The notes under the pieces are model-generated. The model was not told the DNA's origin. It ran no database searches and was given only the letters and a program-made list of their open reading frames with translations. A stretch of 31,222 bases of DNA from a virus, in the IMG/VR virus record IMGVR_UViG_3300030104_005300, positions 1 to 31,222 of that record. One strand, written 5' to 3'. A program made the translations under genes and the position numbers. Shown here piece after piece: positions 14,969 through 25,407 of the stretch; position 1 is the first letter of the stretch, and each line of letters starts with the position of its first letter.

Positions 14969-15697
14969 ATGAAAGCTAAAAAAATAAACACAATATATGA
15001 GACTACAGACTACACTATGTTCAAAGCTTTGGATGGAAATAGGAGGTTGAACATACATCACGCCAATAGACTAATGGAATCTATAACCCAAGAGTCTTTA
15101 TGTGTCCCCATTATAATTAACGAGAAATATGAAGTAATAGATGGTCAGCATAGATTATATTGCTGGGAAAAACTAAGTTTGCCAGCATATTATGTTCTTG
15201 TCCCAGGATATAGATTGCCGCAAGTTCAAAGATTAAATAATAATTCTAAGACTTGGAAAATATCTGACTATGCAGATAGTTATTGCGAGTTAGGATATAA
15301 AGATTATTGCAAGTATAAAGAGTTTAGAAAAATGTATAATCTTGGAGATTATGAGTCTATAGCTATGCTTGAGGGAAATATAAGAGGTTCTGGAAAAAGT
15401 TTCGCTAATTTTAGAAATGGTAAATTTAAAATTAAAAGTTGGAATAAGTCCTGCAAAGAAGCAGAAAAGATAATGCAATTTAAGCCTTTGTATGATGGGT
15501 GGAAAAGAAGATCTTTTGTAATTGCTATGCTACATTTAATTAACCACAAAAACTTTGATTTATCTCGGCTTTTAAATAAGTTTGAAAAATTTCCAAGCAA
15601 AGTTCATAACTGTGTTAATACTGAAGAATATGTAGAAATGCTAAACAAACTATACAACTACAAACAATCAGATAAAGTTAGTTTGTTGTATAATTAA
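14969..15697 (+). CDS. ParB/sulfiredoxin-fold nucleotidase-like protein
   Basis: 242 aa, strong AAGGAG before ATG at 14969. N-terminal part has NRRLNIHHANRLMESITQ, PIIINEKYEVIDGQHRLYCWEKL, the ParB-type signature with the conserved VIDGQHR (57-63). ParB-fold proteins bind CTP or act as nucleases and phosphotransferases; phage versions outside partition cassettes are often called ParB-like nucleases. The C-terminal half is helical with KPLYDGWKRRSFVIAM and no HTH noted. No parA is nearby, so a role in partition is unlikely. The gene stands alone between tiny genes and the nuclease cluster. Confidence 0.75.
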   Translation: MKAKKINTIYETTDYTMFKALDGNRRLNIHHANRLMESITQESLCVPIIINEKYEVIDGQHRLYCWEKLSLPAYYVLVPGYRLPQVQRLNNNSKTWKISDYADSYCELGYKDYCKYKEFRKMYNLGDYESIAMLEGNIRGSGKSFANFRNGKFKIKSWNKSCKEAEKIMQFKPLYDGWKRRSFVIAMLHLINHKNFDLSRLLNKFEKFPSKVHNCVNTEEYVEMLNKLYNYKQSDKVSLLYN

Positions 15698-18297: not shown

Positions 18298-18741
18298 CTA
18301 AATTCTAGTCTTTCTAACTGTTTTATGTATAATTTTTTGTGTTTCTATTTCTTCATATTTTCTTGCATCAGAGTTCCAATTACCTCTAGCAAGAATCCAA
18401 TCATTTCTATTTAAATTATTAACTTGTGCTGTTTTATATTGTTCATCCCAAGTAACATATTTAGCAGATGTTATTTCAAGTTCTCCAATATAATCAAACA
18501 ATACATTAGTTATCTCTGATTGTGCTAAACTAAATATAATAACCTTAGATTTACCTGCTTTCATAGTCCAACCTGCACCTAATCTATTTACACCTTTAAA
18601 AGCACCATTATAATTAATTTCAATTAATGCTATCTCACCATTAGATTCTATTTCCACAGTTCCTGTTCCATAACTTATTGCAACATTTGTAGCTGGTGCT
18701 AATTGTCTTATTCCTAATGTATCTCTAAATTCTTGTGCCAT
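18298..18741 (-). CDS. Small tail-associated structural protein (147 aa)
   Basis: ATG at 18741 overlaps the stop of the dockerin-bearing tail protein by one base (TAATG), so the two are translated together. Beta-rich with SYGTGTVEIESNGEIALIEI and WTMKAGKSKVIIFSLAQSE, ending in a basic strand (KIIHKTVRKTRI). Likely a minor tail or fibre-attachment subunit. No recognised family. Confidence 0.55.
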   Translation of the reverse strand: MAQEFRDTLGIRQLAPATNVAISYGTGTVEIESNGEIALIEINYNGAFKGVNRLGAGWTMKAGKSKVIIFSLAQSEITNVLFDYIGELEITSAKYVTWDEQYKTAQVNNLNRNDWILARGNWNSDARKYEEIETQKIIHKTVRKTRI

Positions 18742-21320
18742 TATTCTCCTACAATACTATTTACCATATTTACAATATCTATTACATTTACATCACCATC
18801 ATTATTAGCATCTCCATATTGAAGAAAAGGCAAATATTGTGTTCCTGTAATATGACTGACAACTTGAATAATATCAAGAACAGTTACCTCTCCATCCCCA
18901 TCAACATCTCCTGATACAATATCAGCAGAAATTTGGTTTGCATAAGTAGGATATGTAAAGTTATCCCAAACTAAATCAGAATCTGCATTATGGTGCATTT
19001 GTATTAATTTAATTCTTACATTTTTAATAGACTTGGCTATATCTGTAACCATAAACAACGGCAGTATATATTGACCACATCTAATTGGCATATCATCAGG
19101 ACTTGACAAAACATAACTTTCACTATATATTTTTTTACCTAAAATCATTTCATTAAAATCGCATAAATCGCCAATTTCTAAATTATAGTATTTTAATGGC
19201 AATGTTAGTTCTATAACATTATGCACATTCATATGTAAATACACTAAATGCTCTGCTAGTTTTATAGCAGTTTGCTCATCTCTAATATATTTATTTTCAA
19301 TGCTTAAGAAAGTGTCTTGGTGGTCAAACTTATTAGAGTCTTTATCAAACTTTAAACCATAGTAGTTTTTCTTAGGCATATTGTTTGGGTCTAGTAATCT
19401 AATATCACCATATCTACCTGTTATTCCATAAGTTTCTGCCATAACAATTTCTTCAGGAGAGTATGCAATACCTTCAACATTATAAGCACTTCTAGTAACA
19501 CTTTCTAAATAATTATCTAATCCATAATCATATTTATATTGAACTTGAACTTTTGTATATATTTTATCTAGTGGTGTTCTTGATACTGAGTATTTAATTA
19601 CATCCTGAGCATTTATAGTTAGTGTAGGATCTAAATCATCTGTTTTTGTATAAGTATCCTGTATATATGCAAATGAAAACATACCATTGTTAAAGGTAGG
19701 AACACACTTAGATGATTGTGCTATTTCTTGAAATAAGTTTTTACCTTCTATTTCTTCATTAACTGAAAATCCTAATTTAAAATCAGATTGATTGTTTCTT
19801 GCATTTACTATCTTATCTACATTAACATCTTGATTATATCCAAGCTCTTGCTCTGCTAAATGAAACATAACATCTGATGGGTTTTCTATTGCTACCTCAC
19901 TAGGCACATATTCTTCATCTGTTAATTCAAATCCTTGATAATTAACATCTAAGGTTGTACTACCACCAAATAAAATCTTTTGGTATGGTTCTAATTGTTC
20001 AAAGGGTTCTAAATATGAATTAGGCACATAATCTTCAGTTAAAGAATGTAATACTATATAAAATGTAAAACTATCTGCACCTATTTGACCTGTGGGTTGA
20101 TATGTAAAATTAACTTCATTTAATTGATTATCTGCTATTTCTATGGTTTTACCAAACCCACTACCATCATCAAAATTAACCACTCCATAATTAGCCATAT
20201 CATCTATTTCATTATAGCTTGTATTAATTAATGTAGAGCTAAGTATAGAAGCATATTCAGGTGTTCCAATATCACTATTATCAAACACATAAACACTTGC
20301 CTGACCTATAAAATCATTTACAGAAAAAGTAAAAGTACCACTTACTTGCTCATCAACATTTACAGAAGATGATTCTAAATTGACATTTGATTGGTTTACA
20401 TAAAAATCAAAAGACTGAGAAAACTCATCACCAAAATATAAATATGGAACTAATGCAATACTATCTGTGCTATATGGTGTTAAGTTTGAATCTAAATGGA
20501 ATCTACCTAAAAAACCTCCTGATGCTTGTATAGGTGAGCTTGAACCTGCTGCTCCTATAGTCATAGCAAATCCCATAGCAAACTGCCTTCCAACTATATC
20601 ACCATAATCTATATTACTTAAATTATCATAAGGGTTATTTCCCCAAGATGCACCACCTGTAATTGTATCTACTATATTTTGAACTTCAGGCAAAGTTCCA
20701 TCAATATCTGTTCCCATCCAATTATTACTAGATGCTAAAAAATTAATTGTATCTCCTGTAAATAAATTATTCCATCTTGTATTTTCTATCTTAACTAAAA
20801 CAGATACTAAGCTATCATCTGATGCTCTTTCTAAAGCTGTTATATGTCCTTGTGGAATCATCATTCCATCATTTGAAATTGTATTCCCTGATGAAAATGA
20901 AGATAATTCATTAAAACCTGTAAATAGTGTAAAATAATTTGGCAAATAATAATAATCTTGCCCATTATTAAAAGGCTCAATATTAAATAAATCTGCATTT
21001 AAGAAACCATCAGTCATCCACCCTGTAGTATCTCCACCTGCTTGATATTCTCCTTGATATAAACTCCAATCATCAAAGCCTGTATCTGTGTTGCAGTTAG
21101 TATTTCCTGATCCTAATGTTATTTGAAGATTTGATAAGAAAATAGTATCTTGACCATAAACATAACTTGTGTTTTCTCTTGCAACTATATCTTCTAGCTT
21201 TGCTTGTGTAGCATTACTTGTTGTAGAAACATCACATTTAACATAAACATCACCCCTAGGGTCTACATTGTTTGTAGGATTGCCCTGTGAGTCACAAAAT
21301 TGCAGTAATACATTAGCCAT
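18741..21320 (-). CDS. Tail-tip protein with C-terminal dockerin-like domain
   Basis: 859 aa. The N-terminal 450 residues are beta-rich, Asn/Thr/Gly-rich and variable. The middle (about 480-790) resembles tip-attachment proteins of the J type: IVNARNNQSDFKLGFSVN, CVPTFNNGMFSFAYI, EQTAIKLAEHLVYLHMNVHN, LTLPLKYYNLEIGDLCDF, which build the hub under the tail tube and carry host contacts. Residues 804-859 form two calcium-loop repeats of type-I dockerin design (D805-D807-D809, D816; D837-N839-D841, D848). A dockerin binds cohesin modules, here possibly a host-surface protein, a fibre or another tail subunit. One-base overlaps join it to both neighbours. The dockerin call is strong; its partner is unknown. 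Confidence 0.75.
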   Translation of the reverse strand: MANVLLQFCDSQGNPTNNVDPRGDVYVKCDVSTTSNATQAKLEDIVARENTSYVYGQDTIFLSNLQITLGSGNTNCNTDTGFDDWSLYQGEYQAGGDTTGWMTDGFLNADLFNIEPFNNGQDYYYLPNYFTLFTGFNELSSFSSGNTISNDGMMIPQGHITALERASDDSLVSVLVKIENTRWNNLFTGDTINFLASSNNWMGTDIDGTLPEVQNIVDTITGGASWGNNPYDNLSNIDYGDIVGRQFAMGFAMTIGAAGSSSPIQASGGFLGRFHLDSNLTPYSTDSIALVPYLYFGDEFSQSFDFYVNQSNVNLESSSVNVDEQVSGTFTFSVNDFIGQASVYVFDNSDIGTPEYASILSSTLINTSYNEIDDMANYGVVNFDDGSGFGKTIEIADNQLNEVNFTYQPTGQIGADSFTFYIVLHSLTEDYVPNSYLEPFEQLEPYQKILFGGSTTLDVNYQGFELTDEEYVPSEVAIENPSDVMFHLAEQELGYNQDVNVDKIVNARNNQSDFKLGFSVNEEIEGKNLFQEIAQSSKCVPTFNNGMFSFAYIQDTYTKTDDLDPTLTINAQDVIKYSVSRTPLDKIYTKVQVQYKYDYGLDNYLESVTRSAYNVEGIAYSPEEIVMAETYGITGRYGDIRLLDPNNMPKKNYYGLKFDKDSNKFDHQDTFLSIENKYIRDEQTAIKLAEHLVYLHMNVHNVIELTLPLKYYNLEIGDLCDFNEMILGKKIYSESYVLSSPDDMPIRCGQYILPLFMVTDIAKSIKNVRIKLIQMHHNADSDLVWDNFTYPTYANQISADIVSGDVDGDGEVTVLDIIQVVSHITGTQYLPFLQYGDANNDGDVNVIDIVNMVNSIVGE
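18744..18911 (-). other. Dockerin type-I-like domain (two Ca-binding repeats)
   Basis: Codes for residues 804-859 of the tail-tip protein. Each repeat reads G-D-x-D/N-x-D-G-x-V-x-V-x-D-I-(I/V), with the second repeat about 32 residues after the first, as in cellulosomal dockerins. It ends right at the stop codon. Confidence 0.8.
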
Positions 21321-23251
21321 TAATATCCACCACCCCTACCACCTCTTGTTGGTCTTTTTCTTTGTTTAGCAGGTATTTTTGCAGTTGTAGAAGGTCTTGA
21401 TGTTCTAGCTTGTGTTGTAGGTGCTACTTGATATTGTTCTTTAGGTTGTTGGAATCCTTCTTGCATACCTGAGAATGTTTGTAATTCTGTTGTGCTAGTA
21501 TATCTTAAAGTGTCATTATCTACTCTACCTGTTACATTTGCATATAGATCAAAATCATTAAAGTTTTGCAATATAGCATTTTTCCACAAAGTCAAACTTT
21601 TAAATCCTACAAATTCAACATAACCTGCACCAAAGGCTTCTGTTATAAATCCATGAGTATGTTGTGGGTCAGTATTTATAGAAAATTTAGGATTTTCAAT
21701 GTTTGTTGTTTTTGCAGGAATAGCAAATTGAAATTGATTTAATTCACTAGGAATAGTAAAAGGATAATCACCACTATTTGTTCCACTAAATTCTATTTCA
21801 TTTGGTATATATGTAATATCATCATTTTCAGTACCTGTACCTTCTACCTGCTGTAATGCTTGAAAATTGTGCTGTGGGTCATCTCCTAAAGCACTAAAAC
21901 TAAATAATTTTGGACATTCAGATGCAGTAGTTGCTGAACCAAAATTAAAATGAAATATAGGACTTATCCACAAATCAGTTCCTTTATATGTGCCATTGTA
22001 TTTAATATGAAAATTATAATCTATATATGATACTGCCTGTATAGGTAGATTATTAAATTCTTTTAAAACATCAGAACCACTACAAAAATTATCAACTTCA
22101 AAATTATAGTCATTATAACCTCTTATATATTCATCTGAATAATCATGAAACTCTGTTCCTGTTATTTCAAAAGCATTAGTACAGGCAGTCATTTGATAAG
22201 GAGCTTCATTGTCATTAAAATCTTTTACTTTAATATAAAATGGAAAAGTTCCATCTTTTACATAATCACCATTACTATCTGTTGTTGGTATTAATCTATG
22301 TTCAAATAAATCTATCACTCCTGACTCTTGCCCTTCATAGTTATAGTATTTATATTCACCATCTGTATATCTAGGTGTAAATGACTCTAAAACTTCAACT
22401 AAATTATAAGAAGCTAAATTACCTACAGTGCTATTGGTTTCTTCTGATGTACCTTCATCTATAAATTCAGATGCAGTAGTAGTGCTTTTTTTAATAATAA
22501 ATGAATTATTCTCTATTGTATATTGTTGCTCATTTAATGCTCTTTCTAACTCTACTATGCCACTAACAACATTATGGTCTTTTAAGTTAGATTCTTGTGG
22601 TACTGATAAATAGGCATCACTTGTAAATACTTTTAAATTTTCTATTGTAGATATATCAAAATCATCAGCACTTAATTTATATGTGTTAGCATTATCTTCA
22701 TTATCATTATCTAGATAAACTAAAGGACACCTATCAACCTGACCATATACTATTGGAATAGGCTTATTTCTTTGCTCTTCAGGCAATTCTGTAGTTTTTG
22801 TAAAGTTGTAAGGCACTTTCTTGCCTAATACTTGCTCTGTTCTATCTTCAACCTCTAATAGCACTAAATCTGACTTTTCAGTTATTTTTTTAACATATCC
22901 TGTAAATACTTTTATACAGTCATTCAAAGATACAGCTGACTGTGATTTATAATAAACATCTACAGAAGCATTTATTATTTCACCTGCAAAAAATCTATCC
23001 ATTAATTTTTCATTATTATATTCAGAATTAAAAAAATCCATATTTACAGATGACACCTTGAATTTCTTTTCAAATATATCTATGGATTCTTTTATTTTGC
23101 CAAGCGATTTTAATAATGGATCGTAGTGTTGATTATCTAATGTTACTTTACCTGTCGATAAGTAAATTGAACCATTTATAACCACAAGAGGGACTAAATA
23201 GGTGTTTTTTCCCTGCGTGTCGTTTTTAAATCTTTGTGGAAGTTCTATCAT
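21320..23251 (-). CDS. Distal tail / baseplate hub protein (643 aa)
   Basis: Lies between the tape measure and the J-like protein, the usual position of the distal tail protein and hub proteins. N-terminus has LVPLVVINGSIYLSTGKVTL, then ESIDIFEKKFKVSSVNMDFF and CIKVFTGYVKKITEKSDLVL, a beta-barrel pattern with repeated DFF/GYV segments as seen in phage tail-tip barrels. A variable Asp/Asn/Thr-rich middle follows. The C-terminus is Arg/Pro/Lys/Gly-rich and ends RPTRGGRGGGY, probably disordered. ATG at 23251 overlaps the tape-measure stop by one base. Role in the tail tip is inferred from order and fold pattern. Confidence 0.6.
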   Translation of the reverse strand: MIELPQRFKNDTQGKNTYLVPLVVINGSIYLSTGKVTLDNQHYDPLLKSLGKIKESIDIFEKKFKVSSVNMDFFNSEYNNEKLMDRFFAGEIINASVDVYYKSQSAVSLNDCIKVFTGYVKKITEKSDLVLLEVEDRTEQVLGKKVPYNFTKTTELPEEQRNKPIPIVYGQVDRCPLVYLDNDNEDNANTYKLSADDFDISTIENLKVFTSDAYLSVPQESNLKDHNVVSGIVELERALNEQQYTIENNSFIIKKSTTTASEFIDEGTSEETNSTVGNLASYNLVEVLESFTPRYTDGEYKYYNYEGQESGVIDLFEHRLIPTTDSNGDYVKDGTFPFYIKVKDFNDNEAPYQMTACTNAFEITGTEFHDYSDEYIRGYNDYNFEVDNFCSGSDVLKEFNNLPIQAVSYIDYNFHIKYNGTYKGTDLWISPIFHFNFGSATTASECPKLFSFSALGDDPQHNFQALQQVEGTGTENDDITYIPNEIEFSGTNSGDYPFTIPSELNQFQFAIPAKTTNIENPKFSINTDPQHTHGFITEAFGAGYVEFVGFKSLTLWKNAILQNFNDFDLYANVTGRVDNDTLRYTSTTELQTFSGMQEGFQQPKEQYQVAPTTQARTSRPSTTAKIPAKQRKRPTRGGRGGGY

Positions 23252-25407
23252 TAAGCTATCCCTAAATCTCCACCTTTTCTAAGAGCATCTTTAATTAAAG
23301 GGACAGCCTCATCTTCTATAAAATCTCTGCTTAAAACATTGCCAGAAAAATTAATATTTACCCCTGCTCCGCTCCCAGTTCTATTCATTCTATTTAAGTT
23401 TTCAATACCTATTGATTCAGTAGCATTCCTAGACATAACAAACTCTCCTCTCTCTGCTTCAATAAGAGTTCCTCCCTGAGAATGTCTTTTACCGCCAACA
23501 AGACCACCTTGTTCCATTTTTTTAGCCGCATCTATTTGAGAGTTTATTTGCTGTATCATCACAGCGCCTTGAGATATCAAAGCAAGCCCCTCAATAAAAC
23601 CAAGAAGACCTTTCGCTTTCACAGCCTTAGTCGCTCCAACTACAATATTAACAATACCTTCTGCTTTTGCTAATTGTAAAGCAGCGATTGTAGCTTCTTT
23701 ATTGCCAGCAGCTAAAGTAACAAAATCTTTAGACATTTTGCCTATAGCTCCTCCAATTTTTGAGGCTTGGGAAGTCCAAGTTTGACCAGTAGACTCAAGC
23801 TGTTTTTCTAGCATCTTTAAAACAGCTATTTGCTCTTCTTCAGATTTAAATAACATGTCATTTGTTTCTATTTCTTTTATTTTAGATGTAAGGTTTGCAG
23901 CTCGACCTTCCGCTGTTTTTGCAAAAAGAGCAGCCATTTCGTCTTCTTTTTCTATCATATCTTCCATAGGTCCAGCATAACCTTTGTGTGCCTCTATATT
24001 TGCTAAAATAGATTCTTCTTGTTCTTTAAGCCTGTCATGTTGCTCTTTAAAAGCTGGGTTTACTTTTTCATCTATTAAGCCGTGCGCTCTATTATACTCT
24101 GTTACCATATCTTTAAGAGCTTGTGTTAAATCATCAACTGGTTCATTTTCAACTTCTGGAACCTCAATTCCAGGTATTGTTGCCGCTAAAATAGCCATAT
24201 CTACAGGATTTTCAGCAACCAATCTTAAGTCATCCATTTTAGTTTGGACTTCAAATAATTCATTGTGAAGTTGAGCAAGAGTCAACTTGTTTAAAGAATC
24301 TGCATAAGCATCAGTCACTCTAACTAAAGGTTCTAAGCTTTCATGTTGCTCATCATAAGCTCCCACCAAACCTAAAATCTTTTCCACTAAAAAAGAAGCT
24401 GCTACACCTATTCCTGCAAAAATAAATTTAGCTTGTAGCAATTTACTTGTAAATAATACTGCCGCTTTTGCAGCGACAACATAACCCCCCATAGCTATAG
24501 CTAAATTTCTAATATGCCTTAAAAATTCTTTTATACCAGGTTCTCGAAAGCTATCAGCTATAGAAGAAAGACCGTCCATCAATGGGACTAAAGCCTCTAA
24601 TACAACATTACCAATTCTTACCTGTAAATTTTCCATACTTGAGGCAAATTCATCAAAGGAATCTTGAGAAGACCTAATCTCATCAGGGAGCCTTGAAACT
24701 TTTTCTCTAGCTGCGTCTAACGTAGCGTTTAAAAATGCTTGTTTTTTCTGATTCTCTGTTAAAGATTCCGAGCTGACCCCTAACTGCAAAGCGTACTTGG
24801 CATAGGCTTTATCTGCTTTAACAACAATACCAATATTATCAAGCATAAGCCTTGACTGTCTTCCGATACCAGTAACAAGAGATTCAACTGAAGACCTAGT
24901 GTCTCTACCCAAAGCTCTTCCTAGTCTTTGAGCCATATTAAACATTTCAGCCATTTCTTCGTTATTGTCGGTAATTCCTAAGACTAGCGCATTGTTGGCT
25001 TGTTGAAGCAAGTCAAATTCAGACATAGCACCATTAGTAGCCTCCGTTATCATCTCTAATCCTTGAGTAGACTTTGCAAGCCCTCCAGATAAAGTCTCAA
25101 AAGCTCTAGACATATTTTCAACCTTAGAAGCTTCTTTGGCAAACTGTATTAGTTGCCTTGTCCCCATAGACATAGCAAAAGACATAACTAAGAGCTGAGA
25201 CCTTAATACGGCTATATGACCACCTAAAATGCTTGCCGCTTTAGTGTTGTTCCTCATATTATTGCCTAAAGCTTTGCCTTTCTTAGTTGACTCTCCGCTT
25301 GTAGTGTTTAGCTTGGCTTGAGCTTTTGCTAAAGACTCTATTTGTCTTCTAAGCTCTGGCGCTCCTGCTGCCTTAAACTTTACTGTTATTAGATTGTCTT
25401 TTGCCAT
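23251..25407 (-). CDS. Tape measure protein
   Basis: 718 aa. Sets tail length and is ejected with the DNA. N-terminus is alanine/lysine helical (LRRQIESLAKAQAKLNTTSG), followed by SKVENMSRAFETLSGGLAKS and TEATNGAMSEFDLLQQANNA, a well-known TMP pattern. A hydrophobic segment (IAMGGYVVAAKAAVLFTSKL onward, about residues 300-350) may pass the membrane. The C-terminal part has MEQGGLVGGKRHSQGGTLIE and AERGEFVMSRNATESIGIEN, the conserved TMP end. At about 0.15 nm per residue, the tail would be roughly 110 nm long. Its start overlaps the GT reading frame by 35 bp, as usual for G-T-tape measure order. Confidence 0.92.
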   Translation of the reverse strand: MAKDNLITVKFKAAGAPELRRQIESLAKAQAKLNTTSGESTKKGKALGNNMRNNTKAASILGGHIAVLRSQLLVMSFAMSMGTRQLIQFAKEASKVENMSRAFETLSGGLAKSTQGLEMITEATNGAMSEFDLLQQANNALVLGITDNNEEMAEMFNMAQRLGRALGRDTRSSVESLVTGIGRQSRLMLDNIGIVVKADKAYAKYALQLGVSSESLTENQKKQAFLNATLDAAREKVSRLPDEIRSSQDSFDEFASSMENLQVRIGNVVLEALVPLMDGLSSIADSFREPGIKEFLRHIRNLAIAMGGYVVAAKAAVLFTSKLLQAKFIFAGIGVAASFLVEKILGLVGAYDEQHESLEPLVRVTDAYADSLNKLTLAQLHNELFEVQTKMDDLRLVAENPVDMAILAATIPGIEVPEVENEPVDDLTQALKDMVTEYNRAHGLIDEKVNPAFKEQHDRLKEQEESILANIEAHKGYAGPMEDMIEKEDEMAALFAKTAEGRAANLTSKIKEIETNDMLFKSEEEQIAVLKMLEKQLESTGQTWTSQASKIGGAIGKMSKDFVTLAAGNKEATIAALQLAKAEGIVNIVVGATKAVKAKGLLGFIEGLALISQGAVMIQQINSQIDAAKKMEQGGLVGGKRHSQGGTLIEAERGEFVMSRNATESIGIENLNRMNRTGSGAGVNINFSGNVLSRDFIEDEAVPLIKDALRKGGDLGIA

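Follow-up and report, generated by a model that had tools for sequence, protein, structure and literature searches.

The dockerin-like ending of a putative phage tail-tip protein raises the question of what, if anything, it docks. The protein, P0001, is encoded in IMG/VR virus record IMGVR_UViG_3300030104_005300, all 31,222 nucleotides of which were analysed and are referred to here as the window. The original prediction described P0001 as a J-like tail-tip protein (the hub in what follows) ending in two calcium-loop repeats, and proposed that these could dock the product of another gene or a cohesin on the host surface. The J-like label is a reasonable one given that P0001 comes after the tape measure protein and P0002 in gene order and that Phage-tail_3 (PF13550) is present in 3 of 20 relatives, whereas P0001 itself matches only Dockerin_1 in Pfam, with no Phage-tail_3, and has no PHROG match. 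The features considered are listed in Table 1. In its early region, on the plus strand, the window also encodes a protein of 242 aa (14969-15697) that contains a ParB-like motif (VIDGQHRL).

Table 1. Tail-module features in the window.
Feature	Position	Strand	Basis
P0003, tape measure protein, anchors the tail module	23251..25407	minus	PHROG 3779 (tail length tape measure), E 4e-17
P0002, ends in -GGGY, conserved neighbour between tape measure and hub	21320..23251	minus	Translation; relatives
P0001, putative tail-tip (hub, J-like) protein, 859 aa	18741..21320	minus	Translation; lies downstream of P0003 and P0002
Dockerin type I domain, residues 804-854 of P0001	18759..18911	minus	Pfam Dockerin_1; conservation in relatives
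Calcium loops of the dockerin: residues 805-816, DVDGDGEVTVLD; residues 837-848, DANNDGDVNVID
P0004 (P4), predicted cohesin-like protein, 147 aa	18298..18741	minus	Translation; AlphaFold and Foldseek
Beta core of P4 (residues ~11-110), predicted to be cohesin-like	18412..18711	minus	AlphaFold; Foldseek
Conserved C-terminal tail of P4, residues ~114-147, ...WNSDARKYEEIETQKIIHKTVRKTRI	18301..18402	minus	Low model confidence
P0005 (P5), 380 aa, gene after P4	17146..18288	minus	Translation; distance correlations

The translated C-terminal sequence of P0001 is ...VSGDVDGDGEVTVLDIIQVVSHITGTQYLPFLQYGDANNDGDVNVIDIVNMVNSIVGE. Its residues 804-854 scored 30-33 bits against Pfam Dockerin_1 (PF00404), above the curated cut-off of 22.9 bits, with E-values of 6e-7 by hmmscan against 24,736 families and 2e-9 in a search of the whole window, where it is the only dockerin. 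Both loops are intact and 12 residues long; positions 1, 5 and 12 are Asp, position 3 is Asp or Asn and position 6 is Gly. They follow the type-I pattern with a helix after each loop (the helices are seen in the model of the relative L008). The two repeats are arranged in type-I order as originally predicted, and the coordinates given (18744-18911) were also correct; the stop codon occupies 18741-18743. Relatives of P0001 were taken from viral contigs, reaching down to about 30-32% identity. The segment is present in all seven of the other records found first, each with the same C-terminal ending and a score above the Dockerin_1 cut-off, and Dockerin_1 matched 17 of 20 family members. The columns of calcium-ligand Asp and of Gly vary little or not at all, even as the rest of the protein falls to about 35% identity, which indicates that the dockerin is under selection and is not a random tail. 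On this sequence evidence the dockerin on P0001 is real and conserved. Some relatives have reduced dockerins with one loop (L010/L016 and L019/L022) or degenerate loops (L021, L028 and L040), so calcium dependence may vary, and calcium may not always be needed.

The gene that follows P0001 encodes a small protein, P4. Its ATG shares one base with the P0001 stop codon (TAATG), and a ribosome-binding-type site, AGGAG, is found within the last dockerin codons; the one-base overlap fits matched production of the two proteins. Loci were gathered by three independent queries (the hub, P4, and the dockerin alone) and all ORFs were scored with purpose-built HMMs. Among 84 distinct ORFs with hub and dockerin in viral contigs, P4 was the next gene in 79 and was fused to the hub in three; the remaining two lie within 65 bases of a contig end. 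P4 is present in all 82 hub-dockerin ORFs that have sequence beyond the dockerin, a count that should not be read as a probability because related sequences are not independent. The dockerin-only query gave the same picture of coupling as the others. Every P4 found lay by a dockerin gene, save for a fragment at the start of contig L009, which is a continuation of contig L005. Hub ORFs without a dockerin were either truncated (L069 and L072) or distant (L074/L075), and L074, in which the downstream sequence is present, has neither dockerin nor P4. Another 12 dockerin ORFs, distributed over 10 loci and encoding viral proteins unrelated to the hub, were accompanied by P4 in no case.

These non-hub proteins include trypsin-like protease sequences (L153 and L094), a lamin-tail-domain protein (L078), and large, often cysteine-rich proteins (at loci including L097, L104, L117, L128 and L146, none with P4), and some of the ORFs may belong to the host and derive from auxiliary or mis-binned regions. 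At another locus, L147, the P5-family gene directly after P4 (2778-4100) encodes an internal dockerin at residues 239-299 (Pfam E 1.4e-7), which adjoins a 'GCTDPLATNYNSYATEDDGSC' repeat. There, P4 is flanked by two virion-module genes that both carry dockerins.

The pair has been rearranged without being separated. In-frame fusions in the order hub, dockerin, linker and P4 were found in L006, L008 and L073. The hub tree places them in two separate parts, and just 1% of bootstrap trees recovered one common origin; the hub-P4 fusion arose in two separate events. In the lineage of L033/L070 the dockerin is located at residues 123-187 of 880 instead of at the C-terminus, and P4 is still the next gene; the lineage is nested among relatives with C-terminal dockerins. 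Fusion and relocation are separate evolutionary events that kept dockerin and P4 together.

The fused P4 homologues in L006 and L008 led us to propose a cohesin-like partner, which was recorded before the structure search. The AlphaFold model of P4, built with 21 relatives, has an all-beta core with pLDDT of about 90 over most blocks (75.6 overall). When this model was compared by Foldseek with 350,542 PDB chains, ranks 1-9 were all cohesins with probabilities of 0.82-1.00. The best match was 5nrk (E 1.4e-3, probability 0.99), the nine also including 4dh2, 1g1k, 5n5p and the archaeal cohesin 2xdh, and CBM-like beta sandwiches ranked below them. An independent model of the natural L008 fusion (pLDDT 79.3, pTM 0.68) again returned cohesins at ranks 1-4 (best 2vo8, E 3.3e-4) and at most of the top 19. 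The TM-scores of the P4 models against cohesins are modest, at 0.3-0.4, owing to the smaller size of P4 and to partial disorder in its model; its core is about 100 aa, compared with about 140 aa for a cellulosomal cohesin. The cohesin fold of P4 is a predicted one.

Sequence comparisons gave a different picture. The original prediction had suggested scanning the phage genome for cohesin domains, and a Pfam search (PF00963) that covered the window together with seven related records found none. The 21 P4 members scanned with Pfam and PHROG gave only weak unrelated matches. When P4 profiles of 21 and then 76 sequences were aligned by hhalign with six solved type-I cohesins, the probability was 0.1%, and the alignments were no better than those with shuffled columns; two of the cohesin profile-seed sequences were identical to solved PDB entries. 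In view of this lack of sequence support P4 is termed cohesin-like and is not filed as a cohesin. The partner went undetected by Pfam and became visible only through structure prediction together with gene neighbourhood.

The C-terminal part of P4 differs among relatives. In near relatives it is a conserved, basic tail, and in distant ones the N-terminal cohesin-like core is followed by longer, variable extensions, with predicted proteins of up to about 270 aa. The long proteins of L079, L080, L087, L091, L136 and L147 share a second motif after the core, for example 'GQY.Y.DG.PVPANELIHIHADGV.MTGGVHTEDS' or 'YKGSYHIHLSDNAAMTGKEHTEDS', that had no Pfam match in those tested. A docking core with a variable extension would suit an adaptor, one end of which sits on the tip while the other carries the variable part. 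In mirror-tree comparisons the P4 distances correlated with those of the hub with r 0.89, and those of P5, which were more mosaic, with r 0.46. P4 therefore looks like a part of the hub assembly and not like a freely exchanged adhesin. Co-variation of dockerin and P4 beyond that of the hub was not detected in this analysis (partial r 0.15, p 0.10). Nearly all loci retain P5 behind P4, and P5 has no family match; it evolves less in step with the hub than P4 does, a behaviour that a receptor-facing protein could show. Endings in GGY recur in 35 of 118 P2-family ORFs and 28 of 144 P4-family ORFs, often behind a Gly/Ser-rich stretch, and are possibly a shared assembly or processing signal.

Taken together, the best explanation, and one that we consider probable, is that the phage encodes its own clip of the cohesin-dockerin type, by which P4 is docked to the tail tip. 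The hub would display the type-I dockerin on the tip and the small cohesin-like product of the next gene would dock onto it, presumably in a calcium-dependent manner and probably with one copy of P4 per hub subunit. The clip would fix P4, with its variable C-terminal extension in relatives, to the tail tip, where P4 may carry or position a part used in host contact or in tip assembly. In the three fused relatives both putative halves of the clip would be in one polypeptide. Of the two targets originally proposed for the dockerin, a separate gene product has strong, though indirect, support, with P4 always next to or fused with the hub dockerin and predicted to be cohesin-like; that P4 physically docks there, and does so with calcium, is what we infer from these observations.

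Three other explanations were weighed. The dockerin could be a structural part of the hub that is stabilised by calcium and packs against the same subunit or an adjacent one, with P4 as a co-inherited tail accessory that does not bind it. The close agreement of P4 and hub distances, the non-significant dockerin-P4 co-variation once the hub is accounted for, and the degenerate loops of some relatives are all compatible with such a role. It is nevertheless unlikely, because the fold predicted for P4 is that of the known dockerin partner, P4 is retained when the dockerin relocates within the hub, hub and P4 have been fused twice through the dockerin, and dockerin and P4 are jointly absent in L074. 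It is also conceivable that P4 is a beta-sandwich adaptor of superficial likeness to cohesins that binds the hub elsewhere, the dockerin being a cheap stabilising C-terminal repeat from marine bacteria. Although P4 has no sequence similarity to cohesins, and CBM-like beta sandwiches do come after the cohesins in the Foldseek list, two independent models placed cohesins first, and P4 accompanies 82/82 evaluable hub dockerins against 0/12 non-hub dockerin ORFs, which makes this account quite improbable.

The other target originally proposed was a host-surface cohesin, with the dockerin acting as a device for receptor binding; P4, if cohesin-like, would then bind host dockerins or serve otherwise. 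The tail tip is the right location for such a device, and many bacteria and archaea carry dockerins and cohesins on surface proteins unconnected with cellulosomes (PMC9012536). Yet a phage-encoded cohesin-like partner adjoins the dockerin in every evaluable case, and for this reason docking to the host is ranked below docking of P4. Moreover, the dockerin of L033 lies in the N-terminal part of the hub, those of the fusions lie between hub and P4 and not at a free end, and cellular genome contigs scanned with the hub and P4 contained no relative of either, hence no clue to the host. We found no support for host-surface docking and regard it as very unlikely.

With docking of P4 by the hub dockerin as the preferred reading, we lean towards a wider conclusion, namely that a large group of uncultured phages assembles its tail tip with a cohesin-dockerin joint of its own, that P4 represents a new cohesin-fold family unrecognisable by sequence and serves as an adaptor with a phage-variable C-terminal part, and that gene fusion has more than once turned the joint into a permanent one. 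The reading assigns a putative function to P4, a widespread orphan phage gene, and the dockerin-P4 gene pair is a signature for finding such phages in metagenomes. If confirmed, a virus particle would contain a plug-and-socket joint of a kind hitherto known from cells, providing a calcium-controlled, modular attachment point on the tail tip and a model for how parts of the tip are attached or exchanged by phages, along with a new minimal cohesin-like fold.

The statement that no well-described phage is known to use a tail-tip dockerin in this way agrees with our survey: the literature searched, which left out most subscription journals and all bioRxiv preprints, gave no phage-encoded cohesin-dockerin pair. 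INPHARED phages had no match to P0001 or P4, and two weak dockerin matches in that collection were in unannotated faecal phage records. A dockerin-related match was reported for gene 40 of VvAW1, which is near a putative integration site (PMC3558961), and the 'dockerin' of HSE2 Gp02 is a match to a carbohydrate-binding module, PDB 2wz8 (PMC5967307); neither report mentions a cohesin. These earlier cases are isolated BLAST or structure matches, in contrast to the present one, in which a cohesin-like partner is encoded by the adjacent gene.

P0001 resembles phage tail-tip hubs of the lambda J and T4 gp27 type, and those with Phage-tail_3, in its position after the tape measure gene and its conserved hub core. 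Known phage hubs attach fibres or adhesins via fusion, chaperones or dedicated domains, and no dockerin-based joint on a hub was described in the literature searched. Like cellulosomal type-I cohesin-dockerin pairs (PDB 1ohz, 4dh2, 2vn5 and 5nrk), the phage pair includes a C-terminal dockerin with duplicated calcium loops and a partner predicted to have the cohesin beta-sandwich. Unlike them, it belongs to a tail tip and consists of a single dockerin and a single partner, with no scaffoldin or enzymes, and P4, the product of the adjacent gene, is shorter than a cellulosomal cohesin and does not match cohesins in sequence. A cellulosome, defined by a multi-cohesin scaffoldin and dockerin-bearing enzymes, was ruled out, the window having one dockerin, one P4 and no Pfam cohesin. 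Cohesins and dockerins also occur outside cellulosomes on bacterial and archaeal surface proteins (PMC9012536). The phage pair resembles such modules, among them the Archaeoglobus cohesin 2xdh and the ANME proteins (PMC9012536), in being a putative plug-and-socket joint outside cellulose degradation. However, those modules belong to cellular surface or secreted proteins, while the phage pair is part of a virus structural module and also exists in fused forms.
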